Assembly: GCF_028688295.1 (NCBI RefSeq)
Contig: NZ_JAQTYM010000003.1
Coordinates: 17,455 to 81,454, forward strand
Source of the DNA: Sulfuricurvum sp.
GTDB lineage: Bacteria > Campylobacterota > Campylobacteria > Campylobacterales > Sulfurimonadaceae
Direction: 5' to 3'
DNA: 64,000 nucleotides
Shown: piece by piece, positions 15,012 through 28,929 of the stretch
Layout: every line of letters starts with the position of its first letter
Numbering within the stretch: the stretch's first letter is position 1
Made by a program: the position numbers and the translations under genes
The notes under the pieces: model-generated
The model's input: the letters and a program-made list of their open reading frames with translations, nothing else
Databases searched by the model: none
What the model was told of the DNA's origin: nothing

Positions 15012-16079
15012 GTGGCTGACGATACAGAAAAGACGGAAGAACCCACCTCCAAGAAACTTTCTGATGCCAGAATAGACGGTAACGTCCCTAAAAGTCAAGA
15101 TGTAGCCGGAGTTGTTGTTTTATTTGTTGCTATTTTGTCTTTAATCATGATGTTTACGTTTATTGCTGATCGAATGTTGGGTCTTACGCGCTATTATTTT
15201 TCCATACTGAATGAACCGGTAACACGGGAGGGAATGATGGATCTTGCGTTTGTCACTTTTAAAGAGACATTGGTGATGACAGTTCCTTTTGCACTTATTA
15301 TTGCGATTGCCGGAGTGGCCGGAAATGTTTCTCAATTTGGGTTTAATTTTACCACCAAGCCTCTGGTACCTAATTTTTCGAAATTGAATCCCATTAAAGG
15401 GCTTGCTAATTTGTTCACTCTCCAAAAAGCCCTAGAATCTCTTAAAATTACTTTTAAATCGTTTACAGCGTTGGGAATAGGGCTGATCTTTTTTTGGTAC
15501 TTCATCGAAGAGCTGCCGACGGTTGCCCTGTTTACGTTGCAAGATCAAATGGGGTGGTTGCGGGATAAAGCGATTATCTTAGCATCGGTAATGCTCGTGA
15601 TTATCTTTATTTATGCCATTATCGATCTGTTCTTAACCCGTAAAAATTATTTTGATAAACTCAAAATGTCAAAGCAAGAGGTAAAAGATGAGATGAAAAA
15701 TATGGAGGGGGATCCGCATATCAAGGCAAAAATTCGACAAATTCAGTTTCAGGCTGCCAGAAAGCGGATGATGTCCTCGGTTCCCACTGCGGATGTGGTT
15801 ATCACGAATCCGACCCATTATGCGGTAGCAATCGTTTATGATGAGACGAAACATAACGCTCCTGTCGTTGTGGCAAAAGGGGTCGATAATGTTGCTATCC
15901 AGATCAAAAAAATAGCCCGTGAAAATGGGGTTCATATTGTTCAAAATCCACCGCTTGCACGATCATTGTATGCTGAGGTAGAGATTGATCGAGCGATTCC
16001 GGATATGCTGTTTGCTGCTGTTGCGGAAGTGTTGGCATACGTCTATAAAATGGGTAAAAAACGGAAGGAACATAGCTAA
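15012..16079 (+). CDS. flhB: Flagellar biosynthesis protein FlhB
   Basis: DDTEKTEEPTSKKLSDARIDGNVPKSQD and NPTH autocleavage motif (VVITNPTHYAVAI); GTG start. Confidence 0.95.
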   Translation: MADDTEKTEEPTSKKLSDARIDGNVPKSQDVAGVVVLFVAILSLIMMFTFIADRMLGLTRYYFSILNEPVTREGMMDLAFVTFKETLVMTVPFALIIAIAGVAGNVSQFGFNFTTKPLVPNFSKLNPIKGLANLFTLQKALESLKITFKSFTALGIGLIFFWYFIEELPTVALFTLQDQMGWLRDKAIILASVMLVIIFIYAIIDLFLTRKNYFDKLKMSKQEVKDEMKNMEGDPHIKAKIRQIQFQAARKRMMSSVPTADVVITNPTHYAVAIVYDETKHNAPVVVAKGVDNVAIQIKKIARENGVHIVQNPPLARSLYAEVEIDRAIPDMLFAAVAEVLAYVYKMGKKRKEHS

Positions 16080-17206
16080 TGGATCGCTGGTTTCAACTTT
16101 TTGCGGATAAAAAAATAATCGCCGGAATCTTTTTGGCCATTATGGTCATTTTAGGTGCACTTCTTTTTTATCTCGAAAAAAAGGTGACCTCCCAAACGCT
16201 TGAACGTCTAAGTGATCAACTCTCCACAGCACTCAATAATCAATTGGAAAAAGAGCACTCTACTGCATTGCGTTTTGCTCTTATTCTAGGACAAAATAGC
16301 GCTTTAAGCGATGCCTTGGAACAAGAAGATGAGGATAAAGGTTTTGATATCCTCTCTGAGGTGATGGAGTCGATTAAACTGCATACCGATGTGTTAATTC
16401 GCTCTCAGATTATTACCGCTGATTATGTTATTTTTGCCCGCAGCTGGGATAACTCGTATGCAGGGATGCCTCTGGATTTTCATCGTCCCGATCTTCTCTA
16501 TTTTCAAACCCATAAAAAGCCTCGTTCAGCGATAGAGGTGGGGCGCAAGCTGGGGGTAAAAGCGACCGTTCCGGTATATCATAATGAGAAAATGATCGGG
16601 TTCGTCGAAGTAGTCTCTTTTTTTGAGTCGACACAGGAATATTTTGATCGTTTGGGAATTGATATGTATATATTGATGGAGGATCGATTTTATGAAACGG
16701 CTGTTTTCATGCAGGAAAACCCTTCTATCGGAAAAGAGTACATTTTAGCCAATCCAAAATATACCCAAAGTGATTTGAAGCTTTTAAACGGGATTGATTT
16801 TAAAGCACTCAAAACGGCGCGTCTCCTTTTTAGCGGAGGGCGTTATCTGTTTTATGAACCGATGAAAAATGGAGAAGGGGAGACAATCGGAGCCTTTGTT
16901 TTTTCCCTCACCCAAAAGCAGATAACGACGTATGCTCACTCAGATGAAGAGGATATTTCATTCTTAATCCATCTCTCTCGAAATGAGCTTTACAATATTA
17001 CGGTCAAAAAAACACTCGAAGATGCACAGTTCCAAAGTGTTTATGACAAAGAACTGTTGTATCTAAAAGATGTGGTGGCGCCTGAAGATCGCGAGCTTTA
17101 TTTAGAAGAAGCACGTGAGAGGCTGAATGCCTATTCTAAAGAAGAGCTGATCGGTATTATGCTCGATTATAAGGTGACCAATGAGATCAAAGGGGAGATC
17201 AGGTGA
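16079..17206 (+). CDS. Membrane-anchored, Cache-like periplasmic sensor protein without kinase/GGDEF/MCP output
   Basis: One N-terminal TM, then Cache-like region (DYVIFARSWDNSYAGMPLDFHRPDLLYFQTHKKPRSAIEVGRKLGVKATVPVYHNEKMIGFVEVVSFF); overlaps flhB and the downstream RR. Confidence 0.65.
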   Translation: MDRWFQLFADKKIIAGIFLAIMVILGALLFYLEKKVTSQTLERLSDQLSTALNNQLEKEHSTALRFALILGQNSALSDALEQEDEDKGFDILSEVMESIKLHTDVLIRSQIITADYVIFARSWDNSYAGMPLDFHRPDLLYFQTHKKPRSAIEVGRKLGVKATVPVYHNEKMIGFVEVVSFFESTQEYFDRLGIDMYILMEDRFYETAVFMQENPSIGKEYILANPKYTQSDLKLLNGIDFKALKTARLLFSGGRYLFYEPMKNGEGETIGAFVFSLTQKQITTYAHSDEEDISFLIHLSRNELYNITVKKTLEDAQFQSVYDKELLYLKDVVAPEDRELYLEEARERLNAYSKEELIGIMLDYKVTNEIKGEIR

Positions 17207-17856
17207 GAGTATTAATACTGGAAGATGAATACATGCTTCGTGTAAGCATCACAGAATTTCTAGAGGAATTAGGCTTTGAAGTTAGCGGATTTTCTAATGG
17301 TGAGAAGGCATTCGATGCGATTTATGAGACCCATTTTGACCTCTATCTTCTAGATGTCAATGTTCCGGGGATGAATGGATTTGAGCTTTTGCGGACATTG
17401 CGTAAAGAAGGAAATAAAACTCCTGCCATTTTTCTCACTTCGATGGTCAATGTCAACGATTTGCAAGAGGGATATAAATCGGGATGTTGTGACTATATTC
17501 GTAAACCGTTCGATCTCACCGAATTGCAAATACGGATCATGCACGCACTCAAAAGCCATTATCATGACGGTGAAAACAAAATTGATTTTGGTTCAGAACT
17601 GATCTATGATACTGAAAATTTTACCCTAACGCACGCCGGTGAGAACATTGCACTGAGTAAAACCGAAAAAGAGATTTTTACCGTCTTACTCAAACATACG
17701 AATCAAATTGTATCAGTAGAGATGTTTCAAGACGAGATTTGGGGTGAATACGTTGATCCTGCCAATATCCGTGTACAGATTAACAATCTGCGTAAAAAAC
17801 TCCCGCTAGAGATTATCCAAAACAGACGTGGGCAGGGATACATCATTGAACGATAA
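17203..17856 (+). CDS. OmpR-family response regulator
   Basis: VLILEDEYMLR, LYLLDVNVPGMNGFELLR, DYIRKPFDLTEL; C-terminal wHTH ending QNRRGQGYIIER. Confidence 0.92.
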   Translation: MRVLILEDEYMLRVSITEFLEELGFEVSGFSNGEKAFDAIYETHFDLYLLDVNVPGMNGFELLRTLRKEGNKTPAIFLTSMVNVNDLQEGYKSGCCDYIRKPFDLTELQIRIMHALKSHYHDGENKIDFGSELIYDTENFTLTHAGENIALSKTEKEIFTVLLKHTNQIVSVEMFQDEIWGEYVDPANIRVQINNLRKKLPLEIIQNRRGQGYIIER

Positions 17857-19012
17857 TCGCTACGCCCTTAAAAACGCTTTTTTATATACGATGCTAGTGG
17901 CCGTTTTACTCCTTGTCCCAACCTATCTCTATGTTACCTATATGAAATATGTTTATGAGATTCAGTATGAGTTTAAACTAAAAAAGCAATCGCATCTTAT
18001 CCTCCGAGCGATGGAAGAATTCGACCCTAAAGAAAAACAAGTTTTTGATTATCCGAGATTTCGCTCGTTTCAATCCGGTTTGTACGACATCCATTTTAAT
18101 CCAATTTTTACCCTTGTAAAATCTGAAGTGAAGATGCAGAAAACCGGTTATTATATTGAAGGGGGGTATGCCTATTTGGTGGTTTCTCTCCCTGAGAGAC
18201 GCTATTTTGATGCTTCTTATTTGGTGGTAGGCGGAGAGATTTCGTATGCACGTATTTATCAGGACGTTGTCATGATTTTGCTCTCTATCGCCGCGCTCAT
18301 CTTTATTTTGTCTCTTTATTTTTTAGACCGTTTTGCTTTGCCGTTTCAGAGGATTAACCAACGGTTGGATCAATTTATAAAAGACTCGATGCACGAGATT
18401 AACACCCCGCTTTCTATTATCAACGTCAATATCGATCTATACCATCGTGCCAATCCGACTAATAAATATCTTCAACGGATTAAAGCGGCAACGAAAACAT
18501 TGGCAACACTCTATAACGATATGGATTACTTGATTAAAAATGAACGGTTGGCATTTGACTATGAGTCTATTAATATCAGTATGTACGTTCAAGAGCGGTG
18601 TGATTATTTTCATGAAGTGGCTGCGCTTAAAAATATCACCATTATCCCTCAGATTACTGAAAACATTGTGATCCATTTTAATCCGACACAGTTGCAGCGT
18701 ATTATCGATAACAATATTTCAAACGCGATCAAATATTCTCATGAAGAGGGAATCATTGAGGTGATCTTGGAGCAATTTGAGGATCATTGTACCCTCCGTT
18801 TCCGAGATAACGGAGTCGGCATTGAAGATGTAAACCGTATTTTTGAGCGTTACTACCGTGAAAACAGGGATAAAGGGGGATTTGGAATCGGTCTTAATAT
18901 CGTCAAGTCGATTATCGATAAGGCGGGGATTGAGCTTCAAATCGACTCAACGTATGGAGAGGGAAGTACCTTTTCGTACACCTTTTACCCACCACTTTAC
19001 ACTATGATGTAA
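17846..19012 (+). CDS. Sensor histidine kinase
   Basis: SMHEINTPLSIINVN H-box, NNISNAIKYS N-box, RDNGVGIED, GGFGIGLNIVKSI; two TMs flanking a periplasmic loop. Confidence 0.9.
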   Translation: MNDNRYALKNAFLYTMLVAVLLLVPTYLYVTYMKYVYEIQYEFKLKKQSHLILRAMEEFDPKEKQVFDYPRFRSFQSGLYDIHFNPIFTLVKSEVKMQKTGYYIEGGYAYLVVSLPERRYFDASYLVVGGEISYARIYQDVVMILLSIAALIFILSLYFLDRFALPFQRINQRLDQFIKDSMHEINTPLSIINVNIDLYHRANPTNKYLQRIKAATKTLATLYNDMDYLIKNERLAFDYESINISMYVQERCDYFHEVAALKNITIIPQITENIVIHFNPTQLQRIIDNNISNAIKYSHEEGIIEVILEQFEDHCTLRFRDNGVGIEDVNRIFERYYRENRDKGGFGIGLNIVKSIIDKAGIELQIDSTYGEGSTFSYTFYPPLYTMM

Positions 19013-19056
19013 ATTTTTACTTTTTTTACATTAATTTTACACTCCTACTTTACAAT
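18984..19056 (+). promoter_or_regulatory. soxX upstream region: array of TTTAC direct repeats and putative -10 TACAAT
   Basis: TTTAC at 18984, 18996, 19016, 19025, 19036 and 19049; TACAAT at 19051-19056. Confidence 0.5.
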
Positions 19057-19087: not shown

Positions 19088-19609
19088 ATGCGAAAAGTGA
19101 TTATGCTAGGATTTGCGACTTTTTTAAGTGCAGCCGATTTATCGCAGGTGATTGAGACCCCGGATGCGACGGCTATTTTGAAAAAAGATGCCTTGCCTGT
19201 TGCAAAAGCGTATACGATGCCTGAGGGATGTGTCAGCAGTGATCCTAAAGCAATCGCTCGTGGACAATACATTTTTCATACTCTAAATGGAAAAGATGCC
19301 AAAGAGAATCCGCCGGAGGGGTTAACACGACTACTTCCAAACGGAAAGTCAAAACAAATGGGTAACTGTGTGGCCTGTCATAACATCGAGGGTGCAAAAG
19401 GGTATGGCAATATCGGACCGGATTTGACGAAGTACAAAGAGCTCTACATGGACAGTGGCGTTCGAAACGCACAGTTTATGTACCAAAAAATTGCTGATCC
19501 GCGTTTGGATAATCCAAAATCGGCAATGACGGTGAATCTTGCAAACGGCCTTATGAATGAGCGCGAAGTGTGTGATTTAGTATCGTACATTGTTGCAGAT
19601 AAAAAATAA
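19088..19609 (+). CDS. soxX: SoxX c-type cytochrome
   Basis: Signal peptide; heme motif GNCVACHNIEGAKGYGNIGPDLTKY; first gene of soxXYZAB. Confidence 0.92.
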   Translation: MRKVIMLGFATFLSAADLSQVIETPDATAILKKDALPVAKAYTMPEGCVSSDPKAIARGQYIFHTLNGKDAKENPPEGLTRLLPNGKSKQMGNCVACHNIEGAKGYGNIGPDLTKYKELYMDSGVRNAQFMYQKIADPRLDNPKSAMTVNLANGLMNEREVCDLVSYIVADKK

Positions 19610-19623
19610 ACAAAGGAAATATT

Positions 19624-20094
19624 ATGGAAAGAAGATCATTTTTAAAAGGTTTTGGAGCGGTAGCAGCATGTGCGGTAGCTCTTCCTCATGTTGCAAGTGC
19701 GGCAGAAGAGAAAAAATCAGCCAGTCCGATGGCGATGAATTTTGAGACGGCAGTAGCGGCGATTACCGGTGGTAAAGCGTTGGTTGCTTCAGCAAAAGTA
19801 AAAATGGAAGCTCCTGAAATCGCCGAAAATGGTGCAGTTGTTCCAGTAAAAGTAACCGTTGAGAGCCCAATGAGTGCTAATGATTATGTAAAAGCGATTC
19901 ATATCCTCGCGTCTAAAAATGGAAATGTTCGTTGTGCGAATATCTACTTGACTCCGGCTAACGGTGAAGCGTTCTTCGGTACCCGCATTAAACTTGGTGG
20001 AACTCAAGATGTAGTAGCCATCGCAGAGATGAGTGACGGATCGTTCCTCACCGCTAAGCAAAACGTAAAAGTAACCATCGGCGGATGTGGTTGA
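19624..20094 (+). CDS. soxY: SoxY thiosulfate-carrier subunit
   Basis: Tat-type signal (RRSFLKGFGAV); C-terminal swinging-arm cysteine VTIGGCG. Confidence 0.93.
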   Translation: MERRSFLKGFGAVAACAVALPHVASAAEEKKSASPMAMNFETAVAAITGGKALVASAKVKMEAPEIAENGAVVPVKVTVESPMSANDYVKAIHILASKNGNVRCANIYLTPANGEAFFGTRIKLGGTQDVVAIAEMSDGSFLTAKQNVKVTIGGCG

Positions 20095-20144: not shown

Positions 20145-20471
20145 ATGAAAACACTGATCAAAATCAAACCGAAAAATTACAAAGCAGGCGATATCGTAAA
20201 AATCGATTTTATGGCGATGCACCCGATGGAAACAGGAATGCGTAAAGATAAAGATACAGGCAATTTGATCCCTGCAAACTATATCGATGAAGTGAAATTT
20301 ATGTTCAACGATACTTTGATTACCAAAATGGTGATTTGGGAGTCATTGTCGGTTAATCCATTAATGTCTATCAGTTTCAAAGTACCAGGTGAGGGAACAT
20401 TGAAAGTTATCGCCAAAGATAACAAAGGGCAAAGTGTCGAAACGACTAGTGCCATTAATCCAAAAGGATAA
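20145..20471 (+). CDS. soxZ: SoxZ sulfur-carrier partner
   Basis: IKIKPKNYKAGDIVKIDFMAMHPMETGMRKDKDTGNLIPANYI. Confidence 0.93.
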   Translation: MKTLIKIKPKNYKAGDIVKIDFMAMHPMETGMRKDKDTGNLIPANYIDEVKFMFNDTLITKMVIWESLSVNPLMSISFKVPGEGTLKVIAKDNKGQSVETTSAINPKG

Positions 20472-20474
20472 ACG

Positions 20475-21248
20475 ATGCGTACTTTATCAATTACGGCCGC
20501 ATTGATTTGTTTGGCTTTTTTGGGAACAGCGAATGCGGAAGAAAAGCTCAGTATGTCAGATGCTGATAAAGCGATGTATGCGGAGCTTTTAGAAAACAAC
20601 CCGGCTGAGATGGATGTGGCTGAAGGGGAACAACTCTTTGGTGAGCTGATAGGAACAGCGGGTTATGCCAAAATGTTGGGTGTTAAAGAGAAAGATTTAC
20701 CGAAATACATCGCTGGTTTCCCCCGTTACTTAGAACCTGCTAAAAAAGTAGTGACGTTGGCACAGACTATTCAAATGGCAGCAGCTGCAAATGAAAAACC
20801 GGTACCTAAGCTTGAGAGTAAAGAGATGGTAAAAATGTCTGCGTATGTAAAATCAATCGCAAACGGACAAAAAACCTCTATCGATGTAAAAGCAAACAAA
20901 CATATGGTTGAGATGATGAAACTCGGTCAGCAAGTGTTTGAAGAGCGTCGCGGTGGACGCGGACTATCGTGCAACAACTGTCACAGTATGGATATCGTCG
21001 GTCAGCGTTTGCGTATGCAACCGCTACCGGATTTAGGGGCAAAAGAGACCGCAGCGGCGGGAACATGGCCAGCATACCGTATGACCCAAAGTCAAATGGT
21101 AACGTTGGATAAGCGTATGCAGCAATGTATGAAAAATGCGCTCCTTGCAGAAATTCCACTCGGATCACGTGAGATCGTAGCATTGGAAGTATACGTTACC
21201 AATAAAACCAAAGGGAACCCTATCAGTGTCCCTAGCGTGAAACGTTAA
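20475..21248 (+). CDS. soxA: SoxA c-type cytochrome (one CxxCH)
   Basis: RRGGRGLSCNNCHSMD heme site; RMQQCMKNAL. Confidence 0.92.
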   Translation: MRTLSITAALICLAFLGTANAEEKLSMSDADKAMYAELLENNPAEMDVAEGEQLFGELIGTAGYAKMLGVKEKDLPKYIAGFPRYLEPAKKVVTLAQTIQMAAAANEKPVPKLESKEMVKMSAYVKSIANGQKTSIDVKANKHMVEMMKLGQQVFEERRGGRGLSCNNCHSMDIVGQRLRMQPLPDLGAKETAAAGTWPAYRMTQSQMVTLDKRMQQCMKNALLAEIPLGSREIVALEVYVTNKTKGNPISVPSVKR

Positions 21249-21258
21249 GGACTGAATT

Positions 21259-23025
21259 ATGGATTTATCACGAAGAGATTTTTTCCATATTGCTGCCGCT
21301 TTAGGGATCGGGATACCGACTCTATCATCAGCAGCATCTGCACCTAAACGTGCTGATGAAGTGGGATTAAAAGATATTTACGGATTCAATGCCAAAGGGA
21401 ATGTGACCATTTTGCATATCTGTGATATGCATGCTCACATCAAACCGTTGTACTGGAGAGAGCCATCGACACTTATTTCTGCTCCGAATCTCACCGGAAC
21501 TCCGGGCTTTTTGTGCGGAGAGTCATTTTTGAAGCATTACGGGATGAAGGGCAAGACTCTTGATGCCTATTTCGATACCTTTATGAACTTTGACGCATTA
21601 GCCTCTAAGTTTGGAAAAATGGGGGGGATTTCACACATGAAAACCCTCATCAACCATATCAAAAAAGAGCGCGGAGCCGATAATGTGATGCTTCTCGATT
21701 CGGGTGATACATGGCAAGGGACGGGCGTCGCCCTCAAAACGGGCGGTGAAGCGATCGTCAAAGCGCAAAACTATCTCGGTGTCGACGTAATGGTCGGGCA
21801 CTGGGAATTTACCTATGGCAAAACACGGGTTAAAGAGCTGATCGAGATGCTCAACGCAAAATTCATTTCCCAAAATATTATCGGGGATGATTCGTTTGTC
21901 GATGATTTTGAAGAACTTATTTTTGAACCGTATACGATCATGGAACGCGGCGGTGCGAAGATCGGTATTATCGGTCAATCGTTTCCATTTACCTCTACCG
22001 CAAACCCGAAAGAGTTTACCCAAGGGTGGAGTTTCGGTTTGCGTCTCGATACCCTTCAAACGTATGTTGATAAACTGCGTAAAGAGGAAAAAGTGGATTG
22101 TGTCGTGGTTCTATCGCATGACGGTTTCAGCGTTGACCAAGAGGTTGCCCGTCAAGTCAAAGGGATCGATTTTATTCTCAGCGGACACACCCATGATCCA
22201 TCACCGCGTCCGACCGTCATCAACGGCACGGTGATCGTTATCGCGGGGAGCCACGGTAAATATATAGGACGCCTCGATATCGATATCCAAAACCATAAGG
22301 TCAAAGGGTATGAGTACAAACTGATCCCCGTTGCGTCCAACTTGATTCCGGCTGACCCTGAGGGTGAAGCGTTGGTCAAAGAGTTGTATTCACCATATGA
22401 TTCCGAACTCTCGGAAGTGTTGGGGATCACGAAATCGACGTTGTTTAAGCGCGATACGTTCCACTCGACCTTTGATCAGTTGATCAACGATTCAATCATC
22501 GATGCGATGGATTCGGACATCTCGTTTACTCCGGGATACCGCTGGGGGACTACGGTTCTCGGCGGTGACAAAATCACGATGGACGATGTCTACGATATGA
22601 CAGCGATCACTTATCCGAACGTCTATACGTTTGAGCTAACGGGTCTTCATATACGTACATTGCTCGAAGATATTGCGGATAACGTTTTTAACGCTAACCC
22701 GCTTTATCAGCAAGGGGGCGATATGAGTCGTCTCGGCGGTGTGACCTATGAGATTCGTGTTGGAGCGGTAAGTGGTAAACGTATCACCAACATCATGGTG
22801 GGAGGAAAACCTCTCAATGATACTAAAGTCTATAAAGTCTCTTCATGGGGCGGTAACCTGCAAAATGCGGGAAGCAATCTTAAAGATTCGTTAACGCGTC
22901 CGGTTTACGATGTAACTGCAGCGTATATCCGTCGTCAGAAAAATGTTAATATTAGCGGTAACAGTAATGTGAAACTGATGGATTATGATTGCGGATGTCC
23001 GAAAAAAGGTTCCAGAAGCTGTTAA
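21259..23025 (+). CDS. soxB: SoxB sulfate thiohydrolase
   Basis: Tat signal SRRDFFHIAAALG; 5'-nucleotidase-type metallophosphoesterase motifs (CDMHAHIKP, LDSGDTWQGTG, LSGHTHD). Confidence 0.95.
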   Translation: MDLSRRDFFHIAAALGIGIPTLSSAASAPKRADEVGLKDIYGFNAKGNVTILHICDMHAHIKPLYWREPSTLISAPNLTGTPGFLCGESFLKHYGMKGKTLDAYFDTFMNFDALASKFGKMGGISHMKTLINHIKKERGADNVMLLDSGDTWQGTGVALKTGGEAIVKAQNYLGVDVMVGHWEFTYGKTRVKELIEMLNAKFISQNIIGDDSFVDDFEELIFEPYTIMERGGAKIGIIGQSFPFTSTANPKEFTQGWSFGLRLDTLQTYVDKLRKEEKVDCVVVLSHDGFSVDQEVARQVKGIDFILSGHTHDPSPRPTVINGTVIVIAGSHGKYIGRLDIDIQNHKVKGYEYKLIPVASNLIPADPEGEALVKELYSPYDSELSEVLGITKSTLFKRDTFHSTFDQLINDSIIDAMDSDISFTPGYRWGTTVLGGDKITMDDVYDMTAITYPNVYTFELTGLHIRTLLEDIADNVFNANPLYQQGGDMSRLGGVTYEIRVGAVSGKRITNIMVGGKPLNDTKVYKVSSWGGNLQNAGSNLKDSLTRPVYDVTAAYIRRQKNVNISGNSNVKLMDYDCGCPKKGSRSC

Positions 23026-23129: not shown

Positions 23130-24617
23130 ATGAAATTAGTAAAACTTAGTATCGTAGCAGCAGCTACTTGTTTATTGGCAACGTCAGCGCATGCGCTTAA
23201 ATCAGAAGATCGTACGGTAAAAGGTAATTACCAAGTAGAATATACCAAAGCGCCGGGTGCGGTAAACTCGATTCAAGAGATGTTTACCGAGGGTGAAGTC
23301 TATGGACGTCTCCGTTCGAATATGTTTTGGTGGGATTGGGACAATGAAAATAATGCTGTTCAAGACAACAACATGTGGGGACTTGGCGGTAGTTTGGTTT
23401 ATAAAACAGGTTTTTTCCACGGTTTAGGTGCAACAGTAGGCTTTTATGGAACGATTCCAATGCATCCTGATAATACCCTAGCTACTCCGGGAACCAATTA
23501 TGGAAAAGCGGGTAAAGATACGTATCACACACGTCCTGATGGAACGGAAGGGGCTATGGGGAATTTTGCTGAAGCGTATTTAGAATACAAAACCGGTAAA
23601 ACCAATGTGAAAGTAGGTCGTCAAGGGATTGATAGCATGATGCTAGCAACCAACGATACAAAAATGATTCCGAACACATTTGAAGCAGCGGTTATTGAAA
23701 ATAAAGATATTCCAAATACGTCTATTCGTGCTGGATATATCATGGCTCAAAAATTGCGTGATCACCAAAGCTTTCACAGTCTAATTGCATTTAATAATGA
23801 CACAAGTAAAGTATATGGAAATGATGATTCAGGTGTTCACAAGGGATTAAAAAATACAGCGATTAGAGCAAAGGGAGCTGATATTGATCCTGAAATGGTA
23901 TTGATTACAGCTCAGAATACCTCTATCCCAAATTTGAAACTCAATGCAGAGTATGTGGGATTAAACGATTTTTTCAGTACAGCTATTGCAGAAGCAAACT
24001 ATAAAATTAAACTGAATGATGCATGGACATTGACTCCAGGTATTCGTTACCTGAAACAAATGGATGATGGTGCGGGTAAAATCGGTGGAGCATCTTTAGC
24101 TGGTACGGTAACGGCTGCAAATGCTGCTTCAAAAGGATATACAACAGGTGATAGTGTAGACGGAAGCATCATTATGGCACGTTTGGTGGCAGCAAGTGGA
24201 CCATTAGAACTCTCAGCAGGATACTCTAAAATTTCTGACGATGCCGACATTATTGCCCCATGGCGTGGATTCCCGACAGGTGGATACACCCGTTCAATGG
24301 CACAAGTAGACTGGATCGCGAACACGAAAAACTGGGCTGTAAAAGCTGTTTATGATTTTGGAAAAGCGGGTATGGTACCAGGATTCAAAGTAGCGGCTGA
24401 TTATGAAAATATGAATTTTGACGATGCAAAAGCAGCTACAAGCGGTTTTACTGATCGTGATATTTTCCACGTCGATATGTGGAAAACATTTAAAGAAGTG
24501 CCAAATACTGAGTTTAAATTCCGTTTTGCAACCATTGATGCTGATCCGGCTGTAGGTGCTACAGTGGATTATAACTCATACAACGAATACCGTTTCGAAA
24601 TTAACTACCTCTTCTAA
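23130..24617 (+). CDS. OprD-like outer-membrane porin
   Basis: Signal peptide; porin-like N-terminus and GKTNVKVGRQGIDSMMLATNDTKMIPNTFEAAVIEN; C-terminal aromatic (YRFEINYLF). Confidence 0.75.
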   Translation: MKLVKLSIVAAATCLLATSAHALKSEDRTVKGNYQVEYTKAPGAVNSIQEMFTEGEVYGRLRSNMFWWDWDNENNAVQDNNMWGLGGSLVYKTGFFHGLGATVGFYGTIPMHPDNTLATPGTNYGKAGKDTYHTRPDGTEGAMGNFAEAYLEYKTGKTNVKVGRQGIDSMMLATNDTKMIPNTFEAAVIENKDIPNTSIRAGYIMAQKLRDHQSFHSLIAFNNDTSKVYGNDDSGVHKGLKNTAIRAKGADIDPEMVLITAQNTSIPNLKLNAEYVGLNDFFSTAIAEANYKIKLNDAWTLTPGIRYLKQMDDGAGKIGGASLAGTVTAANAASKGYTTGDSVDGSIIMARLVAASGPLELSAGYSKISDDADIIAPWRGFPTGGYTRSMAQVDWIANTKNWAVKAVYDFGKAGMVPGFKVAADYENMNFDDAKAATSGFTDRDIFHVDMWKTFKEVPNTEFKFRFATIDADPAVGATVDYNSYNEYRFEINYLF

Positions 24618-24627
24618 AGGCTGAGCG

Positions 24628-25533
24628 ATGAAAACGTTGTTAGGAATTTTATTATTAACGGCCACGAGTTTGAGCGCGTACGATTACGCCCTTAAACCGG
24701 TACGTGTTAGCTCGGATGTTCACTGTTTTTTTGGGAAACCCGAGATTATGGATAAAACTAACAACGGCAACATCGTCAACAGTTGTTACATCGATGCAGG
24801 TGAGGGGTACGTCGTCGTTGACACCGGTCCCTCGTATTCGTATGCCGAGTCCGCCTATAAAGCGATGAAAAAAATCAAATCCCTCCCCGTTAAACTCGTT
24901 ATCAACACCCATATCCATGATGATCATTGGTTGGGAAACAACTATTTTACCGAGCAGGGAATCCGTGTTTTAGGGACCGATGATTTTAAAGTAAACGCGG
25001 ATATGAGTGAACCGACCCGGATGCAAACGTATATCTCTAGCGAAGCGTATGCTAAAACGAAACCCACTTTGCCGAGTGAGATGATCAGCAGCGATACGAC
25101 GCTTAACATAGGTAATCAAACATTAGAGCTTAAAATCGCAAAACACAAAGCACATACCGCTAAAGATATGGTGGTTTTCTTGCCGAAATCCAAAGTATTG
25201 ATAGCGGCTGATTTGGTATTCAATGATCGACTTCCTTCCGTGCGCGGTGGCGATATTAATGGGTGGCTCACCGCTTTGGATGATTTGGATAAATTGGGTG
25301 CGGTACATGTGATTGGTGGACATGGAAATCGAACCGATAAAGATGCGGCACGTATGACACGAGAATATTTTACTCAGATGCGTAACGAAATCCGTTCGGC
25401 AATCGCTGAGGGGTTGGGGATCGATGATACGATCAAAAAAGTGACGATGGAAAGTTACCAACAATACAAGCTGTATGAAGGGACTCATCGACATAACGTT
25501 GAGGCATCTTATCGGGTATTAGAATGGGAGTGA
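24628..25533 (+). CDS. Exported metallo-beta-lactamase-fold hydrolase (SoxH-like)
   Basis: Signal peptide; HxHxDH motif VINTHIHDDHWLGNNYF; IAADLVFNDRLPSVRGG. Confidence 0.85.
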   Translation: MKTLLGILLLTATSLSAYDYALKPVRVSSDVHCFFGKPEIMDKTNNGNIVNSCYIDAGEGYVVVDTGPSYSYAESAYKAMKKIKSLPVKLVINTHIHDDHWLGNNYFTEQGIRVLGTDDFKVNADMSEPTRMQTYISSEAYAKTKPTLPSEMISSDTTLNIGNQTLELKIAKHKAHTAKDMVVFLPKSKVLIAADLVFNDRLPSVRGGDINGWLTALDDLDKLGAVHVIGGHGNRTDKDAARMTREYFTQMRNEIRSAIAEGLGIDDTIKKVTMESYQQYKLYEGTHRHNVEASYRVLEWE

Positions 25534-25970
25534 TGATGAAACGATTACTAGTTTTGGGATTTTGTTTTTCTGCTCTTGCCTTTGGTGATGTCCGTTTTGC
25601 TCAGCCTGAACCCTCGATCGATAAACCGCGTGAGGTGGTAATGGGAATCAGTGCCGGTGACAATGAATCGATCCATCACGGTCTTAGTACCGCGAACAAT
25701 GTTCTCAAATTCTATGGACCTGAAAAGATCCATTTACGGATCGTCGCCTACTATCACGGTATCCGCACATTGCTAAAAAGTGAAAAAGAGATTGCGGTGC
25801 GAGTACGTGCATTGCAGCAATACGGTGTCGAATTTGTCGCGTGCGGTAACACGATGGAGACGAAAAAAATCACACAGGATCAACTGATCGAAGACGTCGA
25901 GATCGTCAGTGCAGGGATCGCTGAAGTGATCGAGCGCGCCACCGAGGGCGCATTTTATATTCAACCTTAG
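25524..25970 (+). CDS. Exported DsrE-family protein
   Basis: Signal peptide MKRLLVLGFCFSALAFG; DsrE-like fold with cysteine in VEFVACGNTM. Confidence 0.75.
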   Translation: MGVMMKRLLVLGFCFSALAFGDVRFAQPEPSIDKPREVVMGISAGDNESIHHGLSTANNVLKFYGPEKIHLRIVAYYHGIRTLLKSEKEIAVRVRALQQYGVEFVACGNTMETKKITQDQLIEDVEIVSAGIAEVIERATEGAFYIQP

Positions 25971-25979
25971 GAGTCAAGC

Positions 25980-26879
25980 ATGAAAATTCTTATTATTACA
26001 GTGTTAGCGGGATTTTTGTCCCTTTTTGGCGGTGATCTTCACCTTTTTAGTGTTTCGAATACAGAAGGCAAGCTTAATGCAGGAGTGGTCGAAAAGGCAC
26101 TTGAAGCGAACGGTTTTGTCATATCGGCAAATACTGAAATGAATGAGCCGTTCAAAAAACAGTTCGGACAAAGTGATTTTGCACAGTTTAATCTTTTGAC
26201 CGCTTATCATAAAATTCACTCAGAAGCATTGGTAACATCAAATCCGGATGGAGGAATTTTCGTTCCGATGGGATTTGGCGTCTATCAACGCAATGGAGAA
26301 AAAGAGCTTCATGTATCGATTTTGAGTGCTGAAGCGATGGCTAAAATCGCTGGATTTAAAGCAGCTGAATTCGCACTGATCGAAAAAGAAGCGATAGCAT
26401 CGATTAAAAAAGCATTGCCGAACGTAAAAGTATCCATGAGCGAAACATCACTCCCTTCCGAGGGAGCATTGCTTAGCCGCTATGTTAAAGAGAGCAGTAA
26501 AGAGAGCTGGTCAAGTGATAAAGAAGAGACTGAGATGATGATCGAAGACGGTCTGAAACCGGCAGGATTTGTGATGTCTAACTTTACTGATTATAACTTT
26601 AGCCTTGGGGAAAAAAGTCCGTTTGATTTTTACGACACTTACTCTATTTGTAAATTAAAAGTAATTTATACCGTAGCCAAAACACGTCCGGAAGCGGCAG
26701 CGTTCGCCCCGTGTACTTTGATGGTGTATAAGAAAAAAGATGCGAATGAAATCGTTATGGGATTCCCAGGGGTATACAACTGGATGAGCAGTGCACGTGT
26801 CAGTGATCCTGAGGGAAAAGCGGTATTGATGCAGGCACAAAAAGATTTTGAAGCGGTTTTACAATCGACAATAGAATAA
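25980..26879 (+). CDS. Exported DUF302-like protein
   Basis: Signal peptide, then DUF302-type segments (FGVYQRNGEKELHVSILSAEAMAKIAG; FAPCTLMVYKKKDANEIVMGFPGVYNWMSSARVSDPEGKAVLMQAQKDFEAVL). Confidence 0.6.
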   Translation: MKILIITVLAGFLSLFGGDLHLFSVSNTEGKLNAGVVEKALEANGFVISANTEMNEPFKKQFGQSDFAQFNLLTAYHKIHSEALVTSNPDGGIFVPMGFGVYQRNGEKELHVSILSAEAMAKIAGFKAAEFALIEKEAIASIKKALPNVKVSMSETSLPSEGALLSRYVKESSKESWSSDKEETEMMIEDGLKPAGFVMSNFTDYNFSLGEKSPFDFYDTYSICKLKVIYTVAKTRPEAAAFAPCTLMVYKKKDANEIVMGFPGVYNWMSSARVSDPEGKAVLMQAQKDFEAVLQSTIE

Positions 26880-26943: not shown

Positions 26944-28929
26944 ATGTTGTTCAGATATGTTTTAATACTATTTTTTACCGCTTTTTATACGGTTATTGTT
27001 GCCGCTTCTGTACCTGATACAGGAAAAAAAGAGGCTGTAATCGGCGTTTTGGCATTCCGTTCAAAAGCCGATACCCTCACTGAATGGCAGCCCTTAGCCA
27101 TCTACCTTAATAGCAAAATTCCTTCCCATCACTTTAGTATACGTCCTCTCAGTTACGCTGAATTTAATGAAGCTGCTGCATCTGATAAACTCGATTTTAT
27201 GTTTAGTAACCCAGAACACTATATTTATCTCTCAGCCAAATTTGGCGCTAGCCGTATGGCGACATTAATCCGAGCAAATGTCGGTGACAGAGAGTTAACC
27301 GAGTTTGGTGGGGTTATTATCGCTCGTTCGGATCGGAAAGATATTCAACAACTAAACGATTTAAAGGGAAAAGAGATTGTAGCCGTTGATGAACTTTCTT
27401 TGGGCGGCTATTTGGCTCAGAGAGCTGTATTGCAAGAGAACGGTATCGATATAACTAAAGAATCAACTATCCAATATACCGATATGCCTCATGATAAAGT
27501 TGTTTATATCGTCGAAAGCGGCTCGGCAGATGTAGGATTTATCCGCACCGGTGTATTGGAGAAAATGGCTAAAGAGGGAAAAATTAATTACCATGATTTC
27601 AAAATAATCCATCCGATGAGAAACTTTCCGCAGGCTCTCTCTACGCCACTTTATCCAGAGTGGCCTTTTGCTGCTTCCAAACATACAGAACGGGTTTTGG
27701 CTAATCAAGTCGGTGTGGCACTACTCAATTTACCCTATGGATCTGAGATAACCAAGAGTGCAGGGTATTACGGATGGAATATTCCTCTCACGTACGAAGG
27801 TATACGTACATTGATGCAAACACTTCGGATTAAACCCTATGACGCGGCTCCCGCTTTTTCGCTCCAAGACGTTATCCAAAAATATGCCTTAGTTGTTATC
27901 TTGTTATTGAGTGTCGTGATTACTTTATTGATTTTTTTAACAACCGGGATGAGACACTTAGCCAATACATTGCGTTTAAAATCAGACTCCTTAGAAAAAC
28001 AGATATCGATTGTTCAAGAGACTGAAAAATATTTGCGCCGAGCTGCAAATGTTTTTCACAACTCACGGGAAGGGATTATTATTACGGACCCTCAAAAAGT
28101 AATTATTGATGTCAACGAAGCTTTTTGTGAATTGACGGGGTATGATCGTGATGAGGTGATAGGGCAAAAACCGATTCTTTTACGATCAGGGATGCATGAT
28201 AAGCAATTCTATGAAAAACTTGATGATGCGATAGTGACTCACGGTTCATGGCGAGGAGAGATTTGGAACCGCAAAAAAAGTGGTGAGCGCTACGCTGAAT
28301 TTTTACGAATTGATGCGGTACGTGACGGAGAAGGTGCAATAGAAAATTATATTGGGATTTTTAGTGATATTACCGAACATCTCAAACGCCAAGAGCAACT
28401 GCATCATATGGCGAATTACGATCCGTTGACTAATCTCCCTAACCGCCATCTTTTTATGACCTTGGCAGAGCAAATATTATCATTTTCCAAACGTAAAAAT
28501 ACGAAAGCGGTTATCTCCTTTTTGGATTTGGATGGGTTTAAGCAGGTTAATGACCTTTATGGACATGCGATCGGAGACCGTGTATTAAAAGAGGTAGCGG
28601 ACAGGTTAGGAAAACAGCTTCGTCAAAGTGATGCGATAGCACGTATCGGTGGGGATGAATTTGTAGTTATTTTTAGCGATATTGATACTCTTGAAGATGT
28701 TCAACCCCTATTTGAACGTATGTTAAAAACTCTGAAAGAGCCATTTTCGGTTAATGAAAATGTTATAACGATCGGGGCGAGTATCGGAGCTTCACTTTAT
28801 CCTGATCATGGAGAAGAGGTCGAGATGCTGGTACGTCATGCCGATGCAGCAATGTACCGTTCCAAAGAGAATGGACGAAACCAAGTAACCTACTTCGATC
28901 AAGAAAAAATGGGGAGAGACGTGTTATAA
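26944..28929 (+). CDS. PhnD-like sensor with PAS and GGDEF domains (diguanylate cyclase)
   Basis: Periplasmic PhnD-like domain, TM, PAS region, RIGGDEFVVIF active site. Confidence 0.9.
   Translation: MLFRYVLILFFTAFYTVIVAASVPDTGKKEAVIGVLAFRSKADTLTEWQPLAIYLNSKIPSHHFSIRPLSYAEFNEAAASDKLDFMFSNPEHYIYLSAKFGASRMATLIRANVGDRELTEFGGVIIARSDRKDIQQLNDLKGKEIVAVDELSLGGYLAQRAVLQENGIDITKESTIQYTDMPHDKVVYIVESGSADVGFIRTGVLEKMAKEGKINYHDFKIIHPMRNFPQALSTPLYPEWPFAASKHTERVLANQVGVALLNLPYGSEITKSAGYYGWNIPLTYEGIRTLMQTLRIKPYDAAPAFSLQDVIQKYALVVILLLSVVITLLIFLTTGMRHLANTLRLKSDSLEKQISIVQETEKYLRRAANVFHNSREGIIITDPQKVIIDVNEAFCELTGYDRDEVIGQKPILLRSGMHDKQFYEKLDDAIVTHGSWRGEIWNRKKSGERYAEFLRIDAVRDGEGAIENYIGIFSDITEHLKRQEQLHHMANYDPLTNLPNRHLFMTLAEQILSFSKRKNTKAVISFLDLDGFKQVNDLYGHAIGDRVLKEVADRLGKQLRQSDAIARIGGDEFVVIFSDIDTLEDVQPLFERMLKTLKEPFSVNENVITIGASIGASLYPDHGEEVEMLVRHADAAMYRSKENGRNQVTYFDQEKMGRDVL

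Follow-up and report, generated by a model that had tools for sequence, protein, structure and literature searches.

Comparison of the sox locus of a Sulfuricurvum species with those of its relatives indicates that the three genes directly upstream of soxX probably encode a three-component system, comprising a dCache co-sensor, a histidine kinase (HK) and a PhoB-like activator, which directly activates soxXYZAB. This suggests that the trio is an on-switch for the sox pathway, as yet undescribed; no description of it was found among open-licence PMC papers. An earlier note on this DNA had read the three genes as a sox regulator coupled to flhB. The part of that reading that ties one module to the sox operon is upheld at the level of sequence, and is joined by a repeat in the soxX promoter, but the functional coupling to flhB is not. 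The relevant features of the window (the whole stretch of 64,000 nucleotides that was analyzed) are as follows.

15012..16079, + strand: flhB (GTG start; stop TAA at 16077-16079), a neighbour gene judged to lie outside the system
16079..17206, + strand: membrane-anchored, periplasmic dCache_3 co-sensor (ATG at 16079; 375 aa)
17203..17856, + strand: OmpR/PhoB-family response regulator (RR; GTG start; 217 aa)
17846..19012, + strand: HK, HisKA/HATPase_c (TTG start; 388 aa)
19024..19041, + strand: predicted regulator box of the soxX promoter, TTTTACA-TTAA-TTTTACA (tandem direct repeat, 11-bp period)
19051..19056, + strand: -10-like element TACAAT, 9 bp past the second repeat, in a register fixed across loci
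19088..19609, + strand: soxX (ATG at 19088; NCBIfam), opening the predicted target operon
19624..20094, + strand: soxY (NCBIfam)
20145..20471, + strand: soxZ (NCBIfam)
20475..21248, + strand: soxA (NCBIfam)
21259..23025, + strand: soxB (NCBIfam)
23130..24617, + strand: outer-membrane porin-like gene, kept 3' of soxB
24628..25533, + strand: SoxH-like hydrolase, metallo-beta-lactamase fold
25524..25970, + strand: DsrE-family protein
25980..26879, + strand: DUF302-domain protein

FlhB, SoxX, SoxY, SoxZ, SoxA and SoxB each scored above the NCBIfam cut-off. The gene coordinates bear out exactly the arrangement described earlier, in which flhB, sensor, RR and HK genes overlap head to tail and, given an HK stop at 19012 and a soxX start at 19088, are separated from soxXYZAB by 75 bp of intergenic DNA. 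The layout is not attributable to chance, since all Sulfuricurvum genomes with the trio and enough contig have this order, which several other families share except for flhB; one locus in the Sulfuricurvum comparison (L070) carries an insert. A PhnD-PAS-GGDEF protein, absent from the earlier note, constitutes a second sensor, located at the opposite end of the sox cluster.

Inspection of the sensor sequence placed it in the dCache_3 family (PF14827; aa 42-279, E = 1.6e-14, 54.5 bits against a cut-off of 25.7); a model of the sensor, with a dCache fold, matches DctB and other dCache domains. A single N-terminal transmembrane (TM) segment was evident from hydropathy, as had been proposed for this accessory protein, and the polypeptide contains no cysteine. 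Pfam assigned no domain to its last ∼95 residues. A C-terminal helical tail at ∼300-375 (YSKEELI...G-I), which the earlier note had not mentioned, is conserved in all sensor classes; pocket positions vary between classes, and sox-class sensors have conserved basic residues at R121, R136, R156 and K161.

The RR has the receiver and winged-helix architecture of the OmpR/PhoB family, both PF00072 (Response_reg, 91.6 bits) and PF00486 (Trans_reg_C, 52.7 bits) being above cut-off, with DPANIRVQINNLRKKL as its DNA-binding segment. It fell far under the cut-offs of the PhoB and OmpR equivalog models and, scoring 108 bits against the 296 required by TIGR02154, is not PhoB itself. The HK contains HisKA and HATPase_c domains, and its phospho-acceptor, H183 in the motif HEINTPLS, is invariant in 36 sequences; a HAMP domain had no Pfam match. 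Hydropathy revealed two TM segments flanking a periplasmic PAS-like loop of ∼100 aa, consistent with the earlier statement that the kinase has a periplasmic loop of its own. A PDB fold search matched the catalytic half alone, and none of the top 50 hits covered the periplasmic domain. The only cysteines of the HK, Cys 252 and Cys 315, are both cytoplasmic; thus, neither sensor nor HK has a reactive cysteine in its sensing part of the kind expected of a SoxR/SqrR-type thiol sensor. The Pfam search also found no PhnD-like (Phosphonate-bd) domain of the ThsS/TtrS type on either protein.

The sensor and this type of SoxB occurred together in 68 of 400 genomes, each alone in 4 and neither in 324 (Fisher p = 1e-66, a statistic that ignores kinship and is inflated by relatedness). 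Of the four sox-only genomes, two do possess the trio, truncated at contig ends, and the other two belong to one genus. Trio and soxXYZAB are syntenic across much of the order, in Sulfuricurvum, Sulfurimonas, Hydrogenimonas and members of additional families, even where the proteins of different families are 30-57% identical. Among Sulfurimonas genomes (g23), a full-length sensor was present in 16/16 that were SoxB-positive and 0/12 that were SoxB-negative. Distance matrices for RR and SoxB, HK and SoxB, and RR and HK were correlated at 0.86, 0.86 and 0.93, respectively. The three trio genes overlap, or nearly so, across families and also in trios linked to multiheme cytochrome genes, and the accessory gene is conserved alongside those for HK and RR, as in a three-component system. 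Exceptions were a trio without adjacent sox genes (L227, a MAG filed as S. crateris) and a split trio (G056); an RR-HK deletion (L244) that looks like an assembly junction was left out. No trio was found at Arcobacter-type sox loci. The trio is therefore not located mainly away from sox genes in relatives, the finding that the earlier note had named as fatal to its proposal.

The soxX promoter contains an element overlooked in the earlier note, TTTACA-N5-TTTACA followed after 9 bp by a TAnaaT -10 sequence (19024-19056 of the window). It was present in 77/82 soxX promoters with a box score of at least 12/14, 55 being perfect, as compared with 0.5% of shuffles. The 11-bp period and fixed register are those of an OmpR/PhoB-type tandem-repeat operator, and the box remains with soxX where insertions of 1-3 kb part soxX from the HK gene. 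A phylogenetic echo within one genus was ruled out because the box is kept between families in which the flanking DNA is unrelated. In the single genus that has soxXYZAB but no trio (G322/G381), the repeats are degraded (TTTTTAGGATTTTTTTATATTTC) and TATAAT forms the -10 element; the box was also absent from the three Arcobacter-type sox loci sampled. These features suggest that the repeat offers a concrete, predicted route to direct control by the RR.

The model R1 was built from soxX promoters, which renders its matches at soxX circular; only matches outside soxX constitute new evidence. The box also precedes trio-linked dsrE, DUF302, porin and multiheme cytochrome genes; where paralogous trios lie in multiheme cytochrome clusters it directly follows the HK gene, and the regulators of the sox and cytochrome contexts have a DNA-binding segment in common. 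Scans of complete genomes located further boxes before a dsrE-trio unit (G367), DUF302 and dsrE, with none at soxCD among the matches inspected. In two Sulfurovum-like genomes, exact boxes occurred only at soxX and DUF302 and not at soxCD. Expression data from Sulfurovum indicum show sox1, dsrE, soxW and soxH1 to be up on thiosulfate versus S0 and soxCD to behave in reverse (PMC10045233). The only other strong match in the genome analyzed here (C121:3140, E = 9e-5) is flanked by dgt and a gene for a small membrane protein; these neighbours have no clear sulfur link, and the match was counted against the sox-regulator reading. Most other exact repeat matches were located within long ORFs and were regarded as fortuitous. 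An exact repeat before a Trx-like gene in the same genome (C81:42580) was not significant with R1, overlaps the end of another ORF and was considered weak.

The following mechanism is proposed. The periplasm-facing, single-TM dCache protein would take up a small anion in its pocket, thiosulfate or a similar sulfur anion being the likeliest ligand, and its C-terminal tail would relay this state to the periplasmic PAS-like domain of the HK. By analogy with its family, the HK would phosphorylate the RR, a dimer of which is predicted from promoter conservation to occupy TTTACA-N5-TTTACA, with the second half ending 9 bp before the -10 element. The bound RR may then recruit RNA polymerase, substituting for a -35 element in the manner of PhoB, the operator of which sits just before the -10 sequence where the -35 would otherwise be. 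Other genera have this box upstream of the trio genes as well, in the order dsrE-trio or porin-dsrE-trio, which would imply autoregulation.

Alternatively, the HK-RR pair could control sox with the HK sensing through its own PAS-like domain, the dCache protein being a scaffold or part of another pathway. The HK does have a folded periplasmic domain, and, of the three proteins, the sensor has diverged most (mean distance 0.62 versus 0.43 and 0.48) and shows the weakest correlation to SoxB. Such an arrangement is nonetheless unlikely given that sensor, RR and HK stay together across families and in cytochrome-linked trios, that conservation of the tail extends to all classes and that of the pocket positions does not, and that a dCache domain without an output domain requires a partner. 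That the box serves another widely shared transcription factor, the trio controlling something else, is improbable: OmpR-family boxes resemble one another and a few copies of this box lie away from sox, but it accompanies the trio into multiheme cytochrome clusters, where the regulators have the same DNA-binding segment, is degraded in the genus without the trio and was missing from the Arcobacter-type loci.

Simple co-inheritance of neighbouring genes without functional coupling would accommodate the association statistics, uncorrected as they are for phylogeny, but it is very improbable in view of the divergence across which the order is kept, the joint losses, the box and its decay; one study describes synteny among epsilonproteobacterial genomes as very low in general (PMC3847290), which further disfavors it. 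That the trio belongs to a flagellar or motility system and simply neighbours sox has negligible probability. Within Sulfuricurvum, the trio reads on from nadC-flhB and overlap with flhB makes co-transcription likely, but flhB does not precede the trio outside the genus, two relatives (L070 and L198) retain trio and sox without flhB, and three (L094, L095 and L084) have lost both and retain flhB. Gene order thus contradicts functional coupling to flhB, leaving a neighbourhood peculiar to Sulfuricurvum.

The proposed direct control of sox by the trio has partial parallels. Accessory sensors also operate in TorT/TorS/TorR and LuxP/LuxQ. In QseG-QseE-QseF, as in the trio, a separate envelope protein is thought to feed the signal to an HK-RR pair (PMC12691602). 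The accessory protein here differs from QseG, TorT and LuxP in being a dCache_3 protein that is anchored in the inner membrane and ends in a conserved tail of its own. PhoR-PhoB has the same RR architecture, and its operator likewise consists of two direct repeats of 11 bp (PMC3978041), but here the sequence is TTTACA-N5 rather than a pho box, a third component is present and the predicted target is sox. ThsS-ThsR and TtrS-TtrR, which respond to thiosulfate and tetrathionate, are likewise two-component systems for sulfur-oxyanion respiration genes encoded beside their targets (PMC5408782); they sense through a PhnD-like domain fused to the kinase, whereas the sensor here is a separate dCache protein and the PhnD-like domain of this sox cluster is on the GGDEF protein. 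SoxR and SqrR also regulate sulfur-oxidation operons, but as cytoplasmic, cysteine-based repressors responsive to sulfane sulfur, with SoxR reported to be strictly confined to Proteobacteria (PMC10451225); the trio, by contrast, is a membrane system without extracytoplasmic cysteines. RsrS-RsrR of Acidithiobacillus caldus likewise exerts two-component control over thiosulfate oxidation genes, but for a tetrathionate-intermediate pathway in an unrelated bacterium (PMC5093147).

Campylobacterota, including Sulfurimonas, Sulfurovum and Sulfuricurvum, rank among the main sulfur oxidisers of vents, redoxclines and aquifers, and Sox occurs in about 31% of Campylobacterota species (PMC10451225). The passages retrieved from a review of respiratory regulation in Campylobacterota name no sox regulator (PMC6682613). 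A candidate regulator can now be named, together with its predicted operator, a small regulon and a genus that provides a natural control for loss of the regulator, which makes the question of sox regulation directly testable. More tentatively, the HK, RR and box may form a portable cassette in which the coupling tail is constant and the dCache receptor can be exchanged, serving sox in some bacteria, with a receptor for a sulfur anion, and multiheme cytochrome operons through the same box in others, possibly for extracellular electron transfer. The trio also suggests a modular sensor design, one that could be swapped between electron donors.

The gene order 5' of the sox operon described in the earlier note, flhB-sensor-RR-HK followed after 75 bp by soxX, proved exact when the gene coordinates were re-read. 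The relevant features are as follows.

15012-16079, flhB
16079-17206, sensor with a dCache_3 domain
17203-17856, OmpR/PhoB-type response regulator (RR)
17846-19012, histidine kinase (HK)
19088 (start), soxX, 75 bp after the HK gene
26944-28929, + strand, 661-aa protein with PhnD-like phosphonate-binding, PAS and GGDEF domains, directly after the sox cluster

Downstream of soxX lie soxYZAB and, in this order, a porin gene, a gene for a SoxH-like hydrolase, and one gene each for a DsrE and a DUF302 protein. Because thiosulfate is sensed by a PhnD-like domain in ThsS, and the 661-aa protein carries such a domain too, the latter may by analogy be a sulfur-anion-sensing diguanylate cyclase. Its gene occupies the same position in several, not all, Sulfuricurvum genomes.

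The sensor-RR-HK trio had also been regarded as coupled to flhB. The order nadC-flhB-trio-soxXYZAB is the rule in Sulfuricurvum, and the neighbourhood is confined to that genus: in Sulfurimonas, Hydrogenimonas and further families the trio precedes soxXYZAB without flhB upstream, so that the sensor-RR-HK-sox order was kept across relatives and the coupling to flhB was not. Trio and sox were retained where the whole genome lacked a full flhB match (locus L070) or flhB was not beside the trio (L198), and both trio and soxB were gone from three loci that kept nadC-flhB (L094, L095 and L084). A sensor remnant of 58 aa with a stop lies 3' of flhB in L084 (genome G015, which lost trio and soxB). In L078 the trio instead stands in convergent orientation at the end of the sox genes, and a complete sox-class trio with no sox gene nearby is present at L227 (7941-10829), from a MAG that is filed under the name Sulfurimonas crateris.

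Across 400 genomes, SoxB of this type (at least 59% identity) and a full-length sensor were each found in 72, and both in 68 (Fisher p of about 1e-66, a value inflated by the relatedness of the genomes). The set includes what we take to be S. denitrificans DSM 1251 (G367), S. autotrophica (G162), S. gotlandica (G379), Sulfuricurvum kujiense (G017), Sulfurovum NBC37-1 (G240) and Nitratiruptor SB155-2 (G100). Two of the four sox-only genomes (G227 and G237) have the trio after all, interrupted by a contig end; in the remaining two, from one genus (G322 and G381), the best RR relatives are merely 38-41% identical. Neither trio nor promoter box was present at the three sox loci of Arcobacter type that were sampled, whose SoxB is about 40% identical, and Arcobacter sox has been noted as evolutionarily distinct from Sulfurovum sox (PMC2147049). 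A second sox cluster in G031 and G023 (L086 and L097) comprises soxYZ-soxB and DsrE-like genes with a different, divergent HK-RR pair; no soxXA lay within the stretch covered.

Alignment of HK-soxX intergenic regions revealed a tandem direct repeat, TTTACA-N5-TTTACA, with an 11-bp period, followed after 9 bp by a TAnaaT -10 element. All 14 positions of this box matched in 55 of 82 soxX promoters and at least 12 in 77, scores of 12 and 13 being reached in 0.5% and none, respectively, of shuffled upstream DNA. The box remains with soxX despite HK-soxX insertions of 1-3 kb (L070, L104, L123, L138, L139, L148 and L162) and is rare upstream of the remaining genes at these loci, where it mostly precedes dsrE or a porin gene adjoining a trio or multiheme cytochromes adjoining a paralogous trio. 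PhoB binds two 11-bp direct repeats (PMC3978041); the soxX box is likewise an 11-bp tandem repeat, to which RR binding is predicted. In the trio-less G322 and G381, the soxX promoter, which gives a gap-free alignment with its counterpart in Sulfurovum-like relatives, reads TTTTTAGGATTTTTTTATATTTC and has TATAAT as its -10 element, as expected for an operator after loss of its activator, in what is one evolutionary event.

Complete genomes scanned for the exact repeat and with a model had boxes 5' of soxX, 5' of dsrE-sensor-RR-HK in G367, which predicts autoregulation, and 5' of DUF302 and/or dsrE in other genomes. Among the matches listed, none was at soxCD, and genomes without trio and sox gave no comparable match except a weak one in G263. 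The predicted regulon agrees with transcriptomics of Sulfurovum indicum, in which sox1, dsrE, soxW and soxH1 were up on thiosulfate versus S0 and soxCD showed the reverse (PMC10045233). A box-like promoter at ~1500 beside dgt was also seen in four Sulfuricurvum genomes (L315, L318, L319 and L320; E about 1e-5 to 1e-4), facing a membrane protein of 143-145 aa in two of the four.

The single N-terminal transmembrane segment ascribed to the sensor and the HK's own periplasmic part were both borne out. The structure model of the sensor dCache domain is of high confidence (pLDDT about 90), the closest solved structures being DctB and other dCache domains; the HK combines two transmembrane segments and a periplasmic domain of PAS-like type with standard HisKA/HATPase domains. 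The C-terminal helical tail of the sensor, modelled with low to moderate confidence and without a Pfam assignment, retains K354, E356, L357, G372 and I374 in every family class, including paralogs in other contexts. Whereas SoxR and SqrR sense sulfur through thiols, the sensor and the extracytoplasmic part of the HK contain no cysteine, so a similar mechanism appears unlikely here. Basic residues R121, R136, R156 and K161, nearly invariant within the sox class, would fit an anionic ligand; R156 is missing from the cytochrome-linked class and K161 from a third class.

The cytochrome-linked trio occurs in clusters of multiheme cytochrome and NHL-repeat protein genes (L165-L181), mostly in genomes without sox, its sensor being 26-31% and its RR about 55% identical to those of the sox trio. 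In at least seven loci the box lies directly 3' of the HK gene, before the first cytochrome gene, and the RR DNA-binding segment DPAN(I/V)RVQINNLRKKL is shared by both classes; box and regulator therefore move together into a different context, which lends independent support to their pairing. Loci combining such a cluster, trio and TTTACA repeat were L165, L168, L170, L171, L173, L176, L177 and L181. The third class (L081, L082, L098, L099 and L145) lies 3' of porin and DsrE genes, away from sox, in L082 and L145, with a box-like repeat 5' of the porin gene in L145.

Gene order, conservation, joint loss, the promoter repeat with its decay and the boxes 5' of the trio operon can all be read at the level of sequence. 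In the proposed mechanism, the dCache pocket would bind a sulfur anion, e.g. thiosulfate, the least certain step, with chances about even; the sensor tail would contact the HK, the HK would phosphorylate the RR, and the RR would bind the tandem repeat and activate. By class, the trio is a three-component system built from ordinary protein families. Judged by the open literature that could be searched, and with an earlier description in subscription literature being possible, it is new that a sox regulator and its operator are assigned in Campylobacterota; also new are the dCache co-sensor whose tail stays constant and the cassette's parallel deployment at multiheme cytochromes, where the trio possibly serves regulated extracellular electron transfer.
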